The notes under the pieces were generated by a model that was given only the letters and a program-made list of their open reading frames with translations, was not told the origin of the DNA and ran no database searches. From assembly GCA_001664505.1 (NCBI GenBank), contig CP011806.1, positions 2,048,487 to 2,112,486 on the forward strand: DNA of 64,000 nt, read 5' to 3'. Both the position numbers and the translations under genes were made by a program. Within the stretch, counting starts at the first letter, position 1. Each line of letters starts with the position of its first letter. Positions 2,507 to 13,353 of the stretch are shown here, piece by piece. The DNA comes from Acidobacteria bacterium Mor1. GTDB taxonomy: Bacteria; Acidobacteriota; Polarisedimenticolia; Polarisedimenticolales; Polarisedimenticolaceae.

Positions 2507-2740
2507 ATGGCTGGGCTCGCTTGCAAATTGATCGGCCACAAACCGGATCCGTGCGGAGTCTGCCTGCGATGCGGCTCCGCCAAGGGCTCGACCCATCAAT
2601 GGGAACCGGCCGAACGGGAAAAACCCTGCTACCGGCGTGAGGTCTGCTCGGTCTGCGCGAAAGAACGGGAGCAACCCGAGCACGACTGGGACTTCCAGGA
2701 AGTCGGCATGGTCTGTTCCCGCTGCGGGCTCCGAGTCTAG
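2507..2740 (+). CDS. Small double zinc-ribbon protein
   Basis: This 77-aa protein has the metal-binding pairs CGVCLRCGS, CYRREVCSVCAK and CSRCGLRV, that is, several CxxC knuckles with an intervening HxW. A good ribosome-binding site (AGGGGGA) precedes the ATG, and TACAAT at 2475-2480 could be a -10 element. The fold is probably a small treble-clef or zinc ribbon for nucleic-acid or protein binding. I do not recognise a specific family. It ends 4 bases into the 3' end of the convergent amidohydrolase gene. Confidence 0.65.
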   Translation: MAGLACKLIGHKPDPCGVCLRCGSAKGSTHQWEPAEREKPCYRREVCSVCAKEREQPEHDWDFQEVGMVCSRCGLRV

Positions 2741-3963
2741 CGGCACTCCTCCGAGACCAGCTCCCCCTCGATCAGTACCTTGCAGGCGTGGGTGGTGTAC
2801 TCCAGCGGGTCGCCGTCGAACAGCACCAGGTCCGCATCCTTGCCCGCTTCGATCGAGCCGACCCGGTCGGCGATGCCCAGCATCTCCGCCGGGGTCAGGG
2901 TGATCGCCCGCAACGCCTGCTCCGGAGCCAGCCCGACGTGTACCGCGGCCTGGGCCTCGTAGAGGATGATCCGGGTCTTGGGCACGTAGCTCTCGAAGCC
3001 GCTCTGGATGGCGAAGGGAATCCCGGCCTGAGCCAGCTTGACCGCCGTGTCGAATCCGGCGTTCTCCATGTCACCGCCGGATCGGATCATCGTCGGGTGC
3101 AGCATCACGCCGATGCCCGCGTCGCGAATCTCGTCGACCATGCGGTAGGACTCCGCCGCGCCGTCGAGCCACAGCTTGAACCCGAACTCCTTTTGCAGGC
3201 GCAGCGCCGAGGCGATCTCGCCTGCGCTCTGGGCGGTGATCATCAACGGAAGATCGCCGTCCAGAACCTTGGCCATGGTCTCGTGGGCCAGGTTGCGGTC
3301 CGGCTGCTTGTCACCCTTCATCCGCGCGCGATAGGTGTCGGCGGCGACCAGCGACTCGCGCAGCATCGAGACCACCTTGGCCCGGGTCCCCGGCGAATCG
3401 AAGTTGTGGCTGACCGACGGCCCCAACGTGGCGGCCACCGAGGCCTGCTCCCGCAGCACCACATCCTCGACGGTGCCCCCGCGGGTCTTGGCGATCAGGG
3501 TCTGCCCCGAGATCACCGCACCGGTCCCGTGTCCGGTGTGGATGGTGGTGACGCCCAGAGAGCGGGCGAACTCGACCAGCGGCTCGATCGGGTCGTAGGC
3601 GTCCACCGCCCGTAGCTCCGGCTGAACCGGAGAAGATTTCTCGAGCTGGTCCTGGTCCTGGACCTGGCCGCGATCGGAGTTGTAGATCCCGGCGAAGCCC
3701 ATGACGGTGTGCACGTCGACGAGCCCGGGGGTCACCGCGGCCGCTTCGTGTACGGGAACCCCCGAGGGGATCCGCACTCGCGAAGCCGGGCCGACCTTCT
3801 TGATCTTTCCGTTTTCGATCAGCACCACGCCGTCCTTGATCGGCTCTCCGGAGACCGTGTAGACCACGCCCCCCTTCACGGCCAGGTCCGCCGCCTGGAG
3901 CGGCAGGGCGGCGAACAGCAACAGCAGGGCGCATCCCCAGAAGCATCCGATAGTTCGACGCAT
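2737..3963 (-). CDS. Exported amidohydrolase-like protein lacking metal ligands (probable pseudoenzyme)
   Basis: This is a 408-aa protein with a signal peptide (CALLLLFAALPLQAA). It has the typical amidohydrolase ends: AVKGGVVYTVSGEPIKDGVV at the N terminus and GSIEAGKDADLVLFDGDPL at the C terminus. It aligns along its length with the neighbour encoded at 3969-5291. The ligand positions differ: VDTHSH in the neighbour is VDVHTV here, QFHTHRHDD is MITAQSAGE, IQHGTES is LDGAAES, and SINTDD is AIQSGF. The binuclear metal site therefore looks dismantled while the fold is kept. The gene begins 5 bases after the neighbour's stop behind a GGAGGT site, so the two are probably made together, perhaps as a heteromer with an active and an inactive subunit. 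It is not obviously degraded: the frame is intact and codon use is normal. Confidence 0.85.
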   Translation of the reverse strand: MRRTIGCFWGCALLLLFAALPLQAADLAVKGGVVYTVSGEPIKDGVVLIENGKIKKVGPASRVRIPSGVPVHEAAAVTPGLVDVHTVMGFAGIYNSDRGQVQDQDQLEKSSPVQPELRAVDAYDPIEPLVEFARSLGVTTIHTGHGTGAVISGQTLIAKTRGGTVEDVVLREQASVAATLGPSVSHNFDSPGTRAKVVSMLRESLVAADTYRARMKGDKQPDRNLAHETMAKVLDGDLPLMITAQSAGEIASALRLQKEFGFKLWLDGAAESYRMVDEIRDAGIGVMLHPTMIRSGGDMENAGFDTAVKLAQAGIPFAIQSGFESYVPKTRIILYEAQAAVHVGLAPEQALRAITLTPAEMLGIADRVGSIEAGKDADLVLFDGDPLEYTTHACKVLIEGELVSEECR

Positions 3964-3968
3964 CAGCC

Positions 3969-5291
3969 TTACCTCCAGCACGCGTGATCGTGCTCGCCCA
4001 TGGGCGAATACACATGCCAACCGCCGACGGCGTACTTGTGGTGCTCGGGGTTCGATGCGTCGTAGACCCTCTGCCCCTCGACCCAGGTTTCGAGCACCTG
4101 GGTGTGCACGCTGAACGGATCCCCCGAGAGAATCACGAAGTCCGCGTCCTTGCCCGGCTCGATGGAGCCGACCCGGTCATCGAGACCGAGCTGCCGGGCG
4201 GGCACCAGGGTCACGGCCCGCAGGGCCCCCTCTCGGGTCATGCCGTTGCGCACCGCGATCGCCGCCGTACGCAGGAACAAACGGGAGTCGGTGATCCAGT
4301 CGTCGGTGTTGATGCTGATGGCGACTCCGGCCTTCTCCAGCAGCGCCGGAGCGTCCATCCGCATGCGCAGGATCTCCTCCTTGCCGCCGGGGGAATCGAC
4401 CAGGGTGAAGGAGACGCCGATGCCCTCGGCGGCCAGCTCCTCGGCCAACATCCAGGACTCGGTCCCGTGCTGGATCACGGGCTTGAAGCCGAACTCCCGG
4501 CTCAACCGCAGGAGGGTCGCGATGTCGTCATGGCGGTGGGTGTGGAACTGTACCCGGCGTTCGCCGGAGAGAATCTGCCCCACCGCCTCGAGGCCGAGAT
4601 CCCGCTTGAACGGTTTCGACCCTTCGCCCTCATCGTCGTTGTCGCCGTCGTCGCCGCCGGCCTTCTTGCGGGCGTAGTCCTGAGCCCTGGTGAACAGCTG
4701 GCGCACCATCGCCGCCGATTTGGCCCGGGTGCCGGGGAAGGGTTTGCCCCGCATCGAGTTGGTGCCGTTGGCCATCTTCATGCTGCCGCAGATACCGTGG
4801 GTCGCATCTTCGCAGAAGAGCCAGTCCTCGATCTTGCTCGGGTCCTTGCGCAGCTTGAGGTAGATCGTCTGCCCCGACATCAGGTGTCCCGAACCGGGCA
4901 TCACGTTGATGGTGGTCAGGCCTCCCGCACGGGCGCGCCACATGCTGTCGTGCAGCACGTTGACCCCGTCGAGGGCCCGCACGCCCGGGTGCAGCGGCCC
5001 GGAGCTGTCGCCCCCCGAAACCTGCCCCAGGTGTGAGTGGGTGTCGACCAGACCGGGCATCAGGATCTTGCCCGGGATGTCGATCATCCGTGCGTCCCGC
5101 GGAACGTCGACGTCGGGGACGTCTCCGACGGCGACGATCTTTCCATCGCGAACCAGCACCACGCCGTTGGCGAAGTCCTCGCCGCCCATGGTCAGAACCC
5201 GGCCTCCACGAAAGGCGATGGTCTCAGCCGACACCGCGCCGAAGACCAGCGACGCCATCACGGCGGCTATCCAGAATGATCGCAAACGCAC
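3969..5291 (-). CDS. Exported metal-dependent amidohydrolase (imidazolonepropionase-like)
   Basis: This is a 440-aa secreted member of the amidohydrolase superfamily. A signal peptide (AAVMASLVFGAVSAE) is followed by PGLVDTHSHLG (first metal HxH), a Lys in the TIYLKLRKD segment, QFHTHRHDD and VIQHGTESW (later His ligands) and SINTDDW (terminal Asp). All expected metal and catalytic residues are therefore present. A strongly acidic insert (GGDDGDNDDEGEG) sits mid-protein. The GTG start at 5291 was chosen because GGAGGAGG lies just upstream and the signal peptide follows directly. Secreted relatives are often peptidases or dipeptidases cleaving peptides or cyclic amides; the substrate cannot be read from the sequence. 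It is the upstream partner of the ligand-free paralogue. Confidence 0.88.
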   Translation of the reverse strand: MRLRSFWIAAVMASLVFGAVSAETIAFRGGRVLTMGGEDFANGVVLVRDGKIVAVGDVPDVDVPRDARMIDIPGKILMPGLVDTHSHLGQVSGGDSSGPLHPGVRALDGVNVLHDSMWRARAGGLTTINVMPGSGHLMSGQTIYLKLRKDPSKIEDWLFCEDATHGICGSMKMANGTNSMRGKPFPGTRAKSAAMVRQLFTRAQDYARKKAGGDDGDNDDEGEGSKPFKRDLGLEAVGQILSGERRVQFHTHRHDDIATLLRLSREFGFKPVIQHGTESWMLAEELAAEGIGVSFTLVDSPGGKEEILRMRMDAPALLEKAGVAISINTDDWITDSRLFLRTAAIAVRNGMTREGALRAVTLVPARQLGLDDRVGSIEPGKDADFVILSGDPFSVHTQVLETWVEGQRVYDASNPEHHKYAVGGWHVYSPMGEHDHACWR

Positions 5292-5355
5292 GGTTCCCTC
5301 CTCCGGAGCGGTGGCGCGCTCCGCAACGACGGCGAGCATATCACCGTAGCCGTGG

Positions 5356-6198
5356 CTACCGGGGCTTGACGAACTTGAACACGAAACGGTCGGTCTTGTC
5401 CCGGCGGACGGCTCCATCGGCAAAGATGTTCCAGTCCCGGGTGTCGTCGGGGTTGGCCAGCAGATCGGACTCCCCGGCCAGCTCGAACCCGGCGGCCAGC
5501 ACCTCCTGCCGAACCAGCTCCGCATCGATCCGATGCAGCCCTTCACGCGGATCGAGTGCATCCCGGGCACCGGAACCTTCCTCGGCGTGGTGGTCGATGA
5601 TGCCGAACACCCCACCCGGACGGAGCGCGTCATGGACCCTCCTGAGGAACTCGGCGCGATCCGCCTGATCGCCGTCGGGGGTCGGCAGCCAGAACAGGTC
5701 GTGATAGAAGCGCACCAGGATCGCCGCGTCGAGATCGGCGGGGAGCTCCATCTCGTCCAGCTCGGCATCGATCCGCTCGATGTTACGGCGGCCGGCATCG
5801 CTCAGACGAGTCAACCGCGTGGTCAACGGCTCCTCGGCGAAGCGCGCCAACACGAAGGCGTTGTTCTGAGCGTAGACCATGCCGTCGCCGCCGACCGCAG
5901 AGGACAGCAGCTCGGTATAGAAGCCGCCGGTGGCCTGCAGGTCGGCAACCCGCATGCCCTCGGCGATGCCGAAGAAGGCCAGCACCTCGGCAGGTTTGCG
6001 GTCAGCATCCCGGGCGCGATCTTCCTCGGGCCGCAGCGGATCGGCCAGGGCCGACTGCAGCTTCGCCGGATCCGGCCCCGCCGGGGCCGCGACCTTGCCT
6101 GCCTCGGATCCACCGTTCGCCGCAGCGTCCGGCCCGGCGGGCGCCCCGCAACCTACCGACGCCAGGACCAACAGAACCACCACCAACATCGCTCTCAT
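5356..6198 (-). CDS. Lipoprotein with class I methyltransferase fold (COG4798-like)
   Basis: This 280-aa protein starts with a lipoprotein signal (VVVLLVLASVGCG), so it should be lipidated and outside the cytoplasm. It then carries a methyltransferase-like domain: MRVADLQATGGFYTELLSSAVGG in place of motif I, and later DALRPGGVFGIIDHH. The motif-I glycines are partly replaced (DLQATGG), as in the DLxPGGGxYT variant of the exported predicted methyltransferase family COG4798. An exported protein has no obvious SAM supply, so a non-methyltransferase role is possible. The ribosome-binding site GGGAGGAG supports the start. It lies 64 bases upstream of the two amidohydrolase genes on the same strand and may lead that operon. 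Confidence 0.75.
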   Translation of the reverse strand: MRAMLVVVLLVLASVGCGAPAGPDAAANGGSEAGKVAAPAGPDPAKLQSALADPLRPEEDRARDADRKPAEVLAFFGIAEGMRVADLQATGGFYTELLSSAVGGDGMVYAQNNAFVLARFAEEPLTTRLTRLSDAGRRNIERIDAELDEMELPADLDAAILVRFYHDLFWLPTPDGDQADRAEFLRRVHDALRPGGVFGIIDHHAEEGSGARDALDPREGLHRIDAELVRQEVLAAGFELAGESDLLANPDDTRDWNIFADGAVRRDKTDRFVFKFVKPR

Positions 6199-6374
6199 GA
6201 ATCTCCTCCCGCGGCCTACGCCGCAACGGCTTGCCCCGGAACCGCAACCGCCCGGGAGATCGTCACATTCCCGGGCAGGTACGTATCTTCCGCCGCGCCC
6301 GATCCGTCGTACCGGTCCTGAGCCGCGGAACGGAGCATTCCCGCTTCGCCCAGGCTCCCAATGGAGGTCTAATG

Positions 6375-10387: not shown

Positions 10388-10899
10388 AGCCGACTCCTGC
10401 CCGCTTCCGGGCTGACCGTCAGACGACCGCCGGGGGCCTGCGGATAGTCCGTCCGCTGCTAGCTCCAAAGCCCCTGCTCCCGGAAACAACCTCGATACAA
10501 CTGGGATAGACCTTAGCGCTGTCCACCTCGCGGCAGCGGGTCGACATCGCCGACTCCCTCCGGCTCGGGACCGGCGGATCAACCCCCTTGGGGCGCGTCT
10601 CGGTGAATCCCCCCGGAACGCAAAGCTTCCGCTGACTTGGCGGATGCGCCCCGGATCGACCGGCCCGCTGCCGCCTCTTACCCCTTCAGCAAGTCCGGCC
10701 TACGCCGCCCGCGGGCGCCACCGCTCGACGGTGTCGGGCGTGTCGCGACGTGTCGGGCTGCGACTGTCGCCCGATCCGACACGCCGGCCCGAAAGCCCGC
10801 CGTTCCGTCGAGACTGTCGGCCCATTCCGCCCCTCGAGGCCGTGGCATGACTCTTGGAACATGGAGCGGCGAGTGCGTTTACCCCCAGGAGCCCGACCG
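10388..10899 (+). other. Intergenic region (512 bases) with clustered TGTCG motifs
   Basis: I find no convincing gene here. The second half holds TGTCG at 10732, 10741, 10751, 10765 and 10815, and the inverted form CGACA at 10777. The first three are spaced 9-10 bases apart, about one helical turn. This could be a regulator-binding cluster for the subtilase gene, or chance in GC-rich DNA. Confidence 0.35.
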
Positions 10900-13353
10900 A
10901 TGCACCGACGCCACACCGTTCTTGCGATCCCCTGCCTGCTGCTGGCCCTGGCCGCCCCAACGGCCGAGGCTCAACGTTTCCACCGAGACGTGAGCTCCGA
11001 CACATCGGGGCGGAGCGGAGTGATCCAACGCACCGCGCCTGACCCGGCGCCGGCGCCGAAGATCGCGCCGAAGCTGGAAGAGCAGATCGAGCGAGGGGAC
11101 CGGGCCATGGTCGACGTGATCGTCCGTTTCCGCCCGGGGGCCCTGCGTTTCCAGAAGTTCTCCCGCCAGTTGGGCGGTGAGTCGCGCCACACCTTCCAGC
11201 GTCTGCCGCTGCAGGCGATGCGCATCCCGCTCTCCTCGGTCGAAGCGCTGCGGCGCAACCCCAACGTGCTCTCGGTCACCCTGGATGCCCCGGTCTCCGC
11301 TGCGTCGGTTTCCGCGCGGAAAACCGCCAACCTGGCGACTCCCGGTAGCCCCCAGGAGGTCACCCCGTCATCCACTCTCGGGATCGCCGTCCTGGATTCC
11401 GGAGTCGGCAGCCATCCCGACCTGAACGTCTCGCAACGGCTCGACTTCATTCCCAAGCACATGGTCTGCGGGGAGGAATCCCAGCGGGTCGATCGTGGCC
11501 TGCAGGTGCTCTACCGCTTCGACGAGATCGAAGGGGGCGTGATCCGCGACGTCTCCGGAGTCGGTAGTCCGATGGATCTGACCATCGAGGATTCCGGCGC
11601 CGCCCTGCTCAAGGGGGACGGCCTGGTGCTGTCGTCGGCCAACCGCGTGTCCAACGGAACCAACCACAACAAGATCTTCATGGCCAGCCAGGCCAGCAAC
11701 GAGTTGACCGTCGAGGCCTGGCTCGTGGCTGGAGATACCAACCAGGGCGGGCCGGCACGGATCGTGACCCTGTCGCTGAACAGCGGTAACCGGAACTTCA
11801 CCCTGGGGCAGGACGGCACCCGCTTTCACGCTCGCGTGCGCACGACGACCAACGGATCCAACGGCTTCAACGAAACCCTGGACGGCGACAGCTCGGTGCA
11901 GTCGAGTCTCCACCACGTGGTACTCACCCGGGACGCCCAGGGCACTACCGTGCTCTACGTCGACGGCGTGGCCCAGGACACCGACCACATCGGCGGCAAC
12001 TTCAGCAACTGGGATCCGAGCTTCGATTTCGCCCTGGGGAACGAGTTCAGCACCTCGAGTGACTCGACCCACCGGGATTGGGTCGGCCGTTACGAACTGG
12101 TCGCCGTCTCCTCGGCGGCCTTGACCGCCCAGGAAGTGCAGCAGAACTTCGCCGCGGGCAGCCCCCACTCGGGCAACTCCTGCTCGAACCCGGTGGAACA
12201 GACCGACCCCTGGGGCCACGGCACCCATGTCGCCGGCCTGATCGGCGCCAACCTGGGCGAGAGCGGAGACCGGGGCATCGCCCCGGGCGCCAAGATCCAC
12301 TCGTTGCGGGTGCTCGACCACGACGGCCGCGGCAACACCTCCGACGTCATCGCCGCCCTGGACTGGTTGCTGGTCAACGGGGCGCAGCAGGGCATCCGGG
12401 TGGTCAACATGTCCCTGGGTAAGGCCATCGAGGAATCCGCCGCCAGCGACCCGCTGGTGCTGGCGGTCGAGGCGCTGTGGGATGCAGGCTTCGTCGTGGT
12501 CTGCTCCGCCGGCAACTACGGCCGTGACGGCAACTTCACGATTACGAGCCCGGGCAACTCCCCCAAGGTGATCACCGTCGGGTCGCTGACCGATTCCGGC
12601 ACCGGCGAGGACTTCAGCGACGACTACACCTCGAGCTTCTCCTCCAAGGGACCGACGCTGATCGACCACTACCTCAAGCCGGACCTGCTGGCTCCCGGGA
12701 ACCGGGTCGTCGCCCCGATGTCCGACGAGGCCGGCCTCAAGCGCCTGCTCAGTGACCGCCTGGTGGCCTGCGGCGCCAAGGAATGCGCCGACGACTACCT
12801 GGAGCTGTCGGGAACGAGCATGGCCGCCGCCATGGTCTCCGGCGCCGTCGCGCTGATGCTCAGCGAGGAGCCGGGGCTCAACCCGGCCACGGTCAAGGCG
12901 CGGCTGATGCGCTCGGCGCGCAAGATCGACGCCGACATCACCCATGCCGGCGCCGGCGTGATGGACGTCCAGGCGGCGCTGGCCGAGACCGGCACCGTCA
13001 GCGCCTCGCCGTCGCCCCGCATGCACCGCTCGGGTGAGGGCGCGGTGATCCTGATCGAGGACACCGCGGCACTCTGGGGCGACCAGCAATGGTCTGCGGC
13101 CTACCTCTGGGCCGACGCCTACCTGTGGGCCGACAGCTTCGTCGAGGCCGACGGCTACCTGTGGGCCGATGCCTACCTCTGGGCCGACGCCTATCTCTGG
13201 GCGGATGCGTATCTGTGGGCCGACGCCTACCTCTGGGCAGATGCGTATCTGTGGGCCGACGGTTATCTCTGGGCCGATGCGGTCAAGAACATGAACGGGC
13301 TGATGGTCGGGCAGATGTCCGCCGCCTCGTCCCGCCTCAACGACGACCCCTGA
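10900..13353 (+). CDS. Secreted subtilisin-like (S8) protease with LamG-like insertion and YLWADA-repeat tail
   Basis: This is an 817-aa exported serine protease. A signal peptide (LAIPCLLLALAAPTAEA) and a propeptide of the I9 type (VDVIVRFRPGALRFQKFSRQ) come first. The catalytic triad is Asp about 166 (AVLDSGVGSHPDL), His about 443 (WGHGTHVAGLIGANLG) and Ser about 640 (LSGTSMAAAMVSGAVALML). Between Asp and His, where about 40-60 residues are usual, a concanavalin/LamG-like domain of roughly 220 residues is inserted (LYRFDEIEGGVIRDVSG ... HHVVLTRDAQGTTVLYVDG ... FDFALGNEF). The C terminus carries ten hexapeptide units based on YLWADA. The ATG at 10900 follows AGGAG and begins the signal peptide; an upstream in-frame extension is not needed. 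It likely degrades extracellular protein, with the insert giving substrate or surface binding. Confidence 0.9.
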   Translation: MHRRHTVLAIPCLLLALAAPTAEAQRFHRDVSSDTSGRSGVIQRTAPDPAPAPKIAPKLEEQIERGDRAMVDVIVRFRPGALRFQKFSRQLGGESRHTFQRLPLQAMRIPLSSVEALRRNPNVLSVTLDAPVSAASVSARKTANLATPGSPQEVTPSSTLGIAVLDSGVGSHPDLNVSQRLDFIPKHMVCGEESQRVDRGLQVLYRFDEIEGGVIRDVSGVGSPMDLTIEDSGAALLKGDGLVLSSANRVSNGTNHNKIFMASQASNELTVEAWLVAGDTNQGGPARIVTLSLNSGNRNFTLGQDGTRFHARVRTTTNGSNGFNETLDGDSSVQSSLHHVVLTRDAQGTTVLYVDGVAQDTDHIGGNFSNWDPSFDFALGNEFSTSSDSTHRDWVGRYELVAVSSAALTAQEVQQNFAAGSPHSGNSCSNPVEQTDPWGHGTHVAGLIGANLGESGDRGIAPGAKIHSLRVLDHDGRGNTSDVIAALDWLLVNGAQQGIRVVNMSLGKAIEESAASDPLVLAVEALWDAGFVVVCSAGNYGRDGNFTITSPGNSPKVITVGSLTDSGTGEDFSDDYTSSFSSKGPTLIDHYLKPDLLAPGNRVVAPMSDEAGLKRLLSDRLVACGAKECADDYLELSGTSMAAAMVSGAVALMLSEEPGLNPATVKARLMRSARKIDADITHAGAGVMDVQAALAETGTVSASPSPRMHRSGEGAVILIEDTAALWGDQQWSAAYLWADAYLWADSFVEADGYLWADAYLWADAYLWADAYLWADAYLWADAYLWADGYLWADAVKNMNGLMVGQMSAASSRLNDDP
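13102..13281 (+). repeat. Coding 18-base tandem repeat (YLWADA x10)
   Basis: Ten consecutive 18-base units encode YLWADA, YLWADS, FVEADG, five YLWADA, YLWADG and YLWADA. Codons alternate at third positions (tac/tat, ctc/ctg, gac/gat), so the peptide is conserved more than the DNA. Confidence 0.95.

Follow-up and report, generated by a model that had tools for sequence, protein, structure and literature searches.

Amidohydrolases are usually annotated gene by gene and have been studied mostly as homo-oligomers. Within the superfamily, the CRMP/DPYSL proteins are dihydropyrimidinase-like pseudoenzymes that have lost the metal ligands and kept the fold. They are eukaryotic cytoskeletal proteins that form oligomers of their own and are not known to depend on an active twin encoded beside them. 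In the open-licence literature, nothing relevant was found on paired or inactive amidohydrolases other than AibH1H2 of Rhodococcus, an (alpha-beta)2 hydroxylase of the PF04909 (Amidohydrolase-2) type. It consists of two amidohydrolase-like proteins, one catalytic and the other thought to be structural, and AibH1 retains a bound metal, on which the complex depends (PMC10401708; PMC12141560). A dead paralogue that works through its active twin is also known from the prozymes of trypanosomatids, where conserved inactive copies of AdoMetDC and DHS are needed to activate the active ones by forming heteromers (PMC5201418; PMC3663545).

The pair described here, P0001 and P0002, lies in a 64,000-nucleotide stretch of the genome of Acidobacteria bacterium Mor1 (the window; Table 1). 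Unlike AibH1H2, both proteins match PF01979 and PF07969 and no other Pfam family, these being general amidohydrolase families, and P0002 is without the canonical site; a search of NCBIfam gave no specific model for either protein at its cut-off. CRMP/DPYSL proteins are among the weak sequence matches of P0002. The nearest solved relative of both by sequence is 3ooq, a structural-genomics entry from Thermotoga maritima (E 9e-60 for P0001, whose alignment spans 25-419, and 6e-42 for P0002). It has a full metal-ligand set in the alignment, was solved as one chain type and has no apparent signal peptide. No function or biochemical data were found in open-licence papers for any member of the family, 3ooq included. 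We consider it likely that P0001 and P0002 form an exported heteromeric amidohydrolase, in which P0002, as an obligate pseudoenzyme partner, would complete or control the active subunit. The prozymes provide the works-like model for P0002, although they are eukaryotic, have unrelated folds and had their activation measured.

Table 1. Features of the P0001-P0002 locus (positions in the window)
Feature	Position	Strand	Remark
P0001, active subunit, exported 3ooq-type amidohydrolase	3969..5291	-	GTG start, 440 aa
P0002, pseudoenzyme subunit, fold as P0001	2737..3963	-	ATG start, 408 aa
GGAGGAGGG, ribosome-binding site of P0001	5296..5304	-	read in sequence
P0001 signal peptide (...AVSA/ET)	5226..5291	-	by eye
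H85-x-H87 of P0001, strand-1 metal ligands (H85, V87 in P0002)	5031..5039	-	alignment
K172 of P0001, strand 4 (Ala in P0002)	4776..4778	-	alignment
GGAGG, ribosome-binding site of P0002	3972..3976	-	read in sequence; inside last P0001 codons
P0002 signal peptide (...PLQA/AD)	3892..3963	-	by eye
P0002 residues 85-121, loop after strand 1	3601..3711	-	D103 invariant, Q104 near-invariant; least confident part of monomer model
P0002 residues 142-149 (HTGHGTGA), barrel mouth	3517..3540	-	H142 and H145 each 73/75
P0002 H289, end of strand 7	3097..3099	-	invariant 75/75
P0002 residues 319-332 (IQSGFESYVPKTRI), loop after strand 8	2968..3009	-	G322, E324, Y326, V327, P328 invariant in 75; low model confidence

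The two reading frames and the motifs quoted for them in a preliminary description of this DNA are all present, as is the 5-base gap between the genes (3964-3968). Its statement that the frame, signal peptide and ribosome-binding site of P0002 are intact also holds, the signal peptide being read by eye. A hydrophobic N-terminus is found in 68 of 73 active and 79 of 80 inactive relatives. The GGAGG lies 8 bases from the ATG of P0002, and its overlap with the end of P0001 makes translational coupling of the two genes likely.

The fold of the amidohydrolase superfamily, a TIM barrel flanked by a beta sandwich, is present in both proteins, and the ligand set is complete in one and absent, save for a single residue, in the other. 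P0001 has all six binuclear amidohydrolase ligands (HHKHHD: H85, H87, K172, H250, H275 and D330), in columns that are near-invariant across 74 aligned actives. P0002 has H/V/A/T/G/G (HVATGG) at these positions, so that one of six is kept and five are gone; the loss is family-wide among the aligned relatives. The earlier claim that every metal ligand had been lost is thus right for five of the six, H85 being the exception. Among 81 relatives, this first His of the HxH motif is kept in 50 and replaced by R in 31, and therefore is neither conserved nor held by selection. The ligand list drawn up for the pair was correct in the motifs it gave and did not include the lysine of strand 4, which is the sixth ligand. 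K172 of P0001 is presumably the carboxylated bridging lysine, by analogy with subtype-I amidohydrolases; the corresponding residue is Ala in P0002 and in 83% of its relatives. The placement of the strand-8 Asp has a two-residue ambiguity, falling on G322 of P0002 in one alignment and on the invariant E324 in the other.

The ligand-free copy is not confined to one strain. A scan with six P0002 orthologues of a database holding one genome for each of 84,980 bacterial species gave at least 560 confirmed relatives, of which 80 loci were kept for study. These cover at least six phyla (Acidobacteriota, Bacteroidota/Balneolota/Rhodothermota, Chlorobi/Ignavibacteria, Calditrichota, Gemmatimonadota, Planctomycetota), with one relative from a bin labelled Gammaproteobacteria; many of the 80 are metagenome bins. 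In 78 of the kept loci the active gene immediately precedes the inactive one in the same orientation, and the remaining two, L079 and L114, are interrupted by a contig end, so that every checkable locus is paired (78/78). Both the gene pair and the ligand loss are thus conserved across these phyla. No relatives were found in the viral contigs searched. In the window's own phylum, a search of 396 genomes at a strict threshold found a P0001 orthologue in 67 and a P0002 orthologue in 52, all of the latter among the former and all adjacent, on the same strand and with the active gene first (52/52). Absence of P0002 from the other 15 was considered and rejected as an artefact of the strict threshold or of a contig end. 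In 14 of them P0002 lies beside P0001 at the fetched locus, its match mostly split in two by an insertion, and in the fifteenth (G054) it is broken at the end of a contig, bringing the count to 67/67. An insertion at about residues 216-219 that splits matches and hides P0002 from strict searches was seen in L079, L080, L081, L095 and the genomes of genus g89. Spacing was obtained for 72 loci, taking as the start of the inactive gene whichever start codon lies closest to the stop of its active neighbour: in 43 the genes overlap or abut and in a further 20 they are within 30 bases of each other (63/72). The commonest arrangement is an overlap of 1 or 4 bases, and the relatives mostly overlap by 1-4 bases. 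The sole widely spaced pair found, with a gap of about 750 bases, is in a Chitinophagaceae bin (L088).

The barrel of P0002 is predicted to be intact. An AF2 monomer model from 75 sequences has a pLDDT of 92.3 and a pTM of 0.90, and it matches 3ooq with a Z score of 51.3 (372 residues superposed, rmsd 1.8); the family that comes next reaches Z 26. Conservation in P0002 is higher on the catalytic face, which was delimited manually with the DSSP string as guide, than elsewhere in the barrel (mean entropy 1.06 vs 1.44, p 0.0003); the same comparison in the active family gives 0.84 vs 1.15. Alternatively, H142, H145, H289, E324 and their neighbours might make up a rewired site at the mouth of the barrel, for another metal or for metal-free chemistry, the pair carrying out two different reactions. 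In keeping with such a site, H142 and H145 (73/75 each) and H289, E324 and R294 (75/75) are fixed in the P0002 clade, on the catalytic face, at the C-terminal ends of barrel strands or in the loops that follow. However, the other inactive clades of the fold family are without residues of the H142/H145/H289/E324 type, so pairing is independent of these polar residues. Moreover, the stretches of lowest confidence in the model (residues 91-110 and 321-330) overlap the two loops richest in invariant residues (those of D103 and Q104, and of G322, E324, Y326, V327 and P328), and poor order in the monomer is accounted for equally well by partner contacts. We therefore regard a rewired site as unlikely. 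That loops should be invariant and at the same time unsettled in the modelled monomer fits contact with a partner, and we infer that these loops have a role in a complex with P0001.

Further paired sets occur in the same fold family, and in every cluster inspected one member has full ligands and its neighbour has lost them partly or totally. Many Acidobacteriota have three-gene sets in the order dead1-active-dead2. The active and dead2 domains are fused in L009 (from the window's own genome), L048, L051, L154, L163 and L164, among others, and dead1 is fused to the active domain, with dead2 separate, in L156, L158, L160, L161, L162, L165 and L166. The fusions are real, since a stop-free open frame spans both domains. 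A model of the natural L009 fusion from 13 sequences has a pTM of 0.83 and a pLDDT of 80. Two barrels without a defined relative placement are expected to give a pTM nearer 0.5, and the model therefore sets them in a defined arrangement; it bears on packing indirectly, through the pTM, and is an analogue only, because its inactive half comes from a clade other than that of P0002. These observations bear on whether P0002 could be an independent periplasmic protein that binds the substrate or product of P0001 and is co-transcribed with it, no complex being formed. The intact pocket face and the strict co-occurrence are compatible with such a protein, but the natural active-inactive fusions of the related sets and the high pTM of the modelled fusion favour contact. 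In addition, no transporter or signalling partner was found to recur next to the pair at the loci examined, and we consider an independent binding protein quite improbable. For P0001 and P0002 we infer instead a physical complex, located in the periplasm.

In close species, dN/dS is 0.03-0.25 for P0002 and 0.04-0.22 for P0001; in a deeper comparison, a pair that includes the window, the values are 0.34 and 0.29. Selection on the inactive copy is thus purifying and as strong as on the active one. Thirty-six invariant columns are common to all 75 aligned P0002 members. The ligand loss is not due to chance, since it is common to a whole orthologous family that spans at least six phyla and is under purifying selection. 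Neither is the inactive copy pseudogenised in relatives: an in-frame stop was found in G197 only, among all P0002 orthologues examined. Decay of a gene duplicate, to which the lost ligands and this one stop might point, is hardly tenable and was rejected in view of a dN/dS like that of the active partner, the spread over at least six phyla, the invariant residues that P0002 has of its own and the strict pairing. A two-part enzyme is favoured over decay by the strict pairing, the purifying selection and the fusions in related sets, which also support the earlier suggestion of a conserved inactive partner. The orthologue in G197 (G197:C4:33395-34603), whose genome has 1.2 Mb and belongs to the window's phylum, is interrupted by a single in-frame TGA. 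In G318, a genus mate with a genome of equal size, the copy is open, and these reduced genomes retain the pair.

In the two-part enzyme that we favour, P0001, with the only complete metal site, would be the hydrolase, acting outside the cytoplasm on a small substrate. P0002 keeps the barrel and has no usable canonical metal site; translational coupling would match its production to that of P0001. It most likely packs on P0001 where a homo-oligomeric ancestor had its second, identical subunit, and from that position may either stabilise the active conformation or, like a prozyme, lend substrate-binding residues through the conserved loops of the barrel mouth. A more ambitious proposal, which we find doubtful, is a broad exported heteromeric class made of an active barrel and one or two pseudoenzyme barrels from ancient duplications, in which the P0002-type pocket now serves the reaction as a binding or cofactor site (H142, H145, H289, E324).

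When the ligand columns are left out of the tree, three changes at most are needed to separate domains with full ligands from ligand-poor ones (shuffled mean 18). The P0001 and P0002 clades are sisters (SH-aLRT 94), with long branches involved. The data do not reject a topology that unites all ligand-poor domains in one clade (p-AU 0.40), and the free tree takes up to three changes. Judged from the tree, the ligand loss is old and may have taken place in one event or in up to three. Among the 60 nearest genomes no isolated family member is evident, contig-end cases aside. Four solitary homologues are found in Bacillota and Actinomycetota, each with 6/6 ligands. In most of them the stretch ahead of the fold is too short, or nearly so, for a signal peptide, and from this they look cytoplasmic.

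An exported methyltransferase-fold lipoprotein gene had been described as preceding the pair, and a methyltransferase-like gene (P0003) is indeed adjacent upstream here; its Pfam score is under the curated cut-off, and it lies beside the pair only in the window's genome. A functional link was rejected, as no homologue is present at any other fetched locus, and P0003 is probably unrelated to the pair. Elsewhere in the window, at 10750-13353 on the plus strand, lies a gene for a subtilase-like protease that ends in a series of YLWADA/YLWADG repeats, nearly identical to one another. A search for recurring neighbours around the loci found no third gene that is conserved, except within small groups of related lineages, such as a zinc-type dehydrogenase in six Rhodothermia/Balneolales loci. 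On a Qipengyuania plasmid, a pair of this fold family is flanked by a POT-family peptide transporter on one side and an FKBP isomerase on the other. From this one locus beside a peptide transporter, and from distant carboxypeptidase and prolidase relatives, our guess is that the substrate is a small peptide or a cyclic amide.

A large exported set in at least six phyla thus appears to need a dead twin, and expression or screening of single genes would miss its activity. Many 'amidohydrolase' annotations label proteins that cannot be amidohydrolases of the ordinary kind. The recurring pairs, the sets of three genes and the fusions at varying points offer a natural series for studying how one subunit of a homo-oligomeric enzyme becomes a non-catalytic partner.

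Some further variants of the related sets were observed. In the window's own genome, L009 (G000:C1:85947-90241) consists of an inactive gene standing alone and, after it, a gene for a 906-aa active-inactive fusion. The dead1 protein of this locus (4560-6281, minus strand) has about 100 extra C-terminal residues, by appearance a small beta domain, and in the L056, L160 and L162 fusions this extra stretch sits between the dead1 and active domains. In L047 (3670-11367, genome G045), six amidohydrolase domains are encoded in five frames, active and inactive alternating, with the last two fused.
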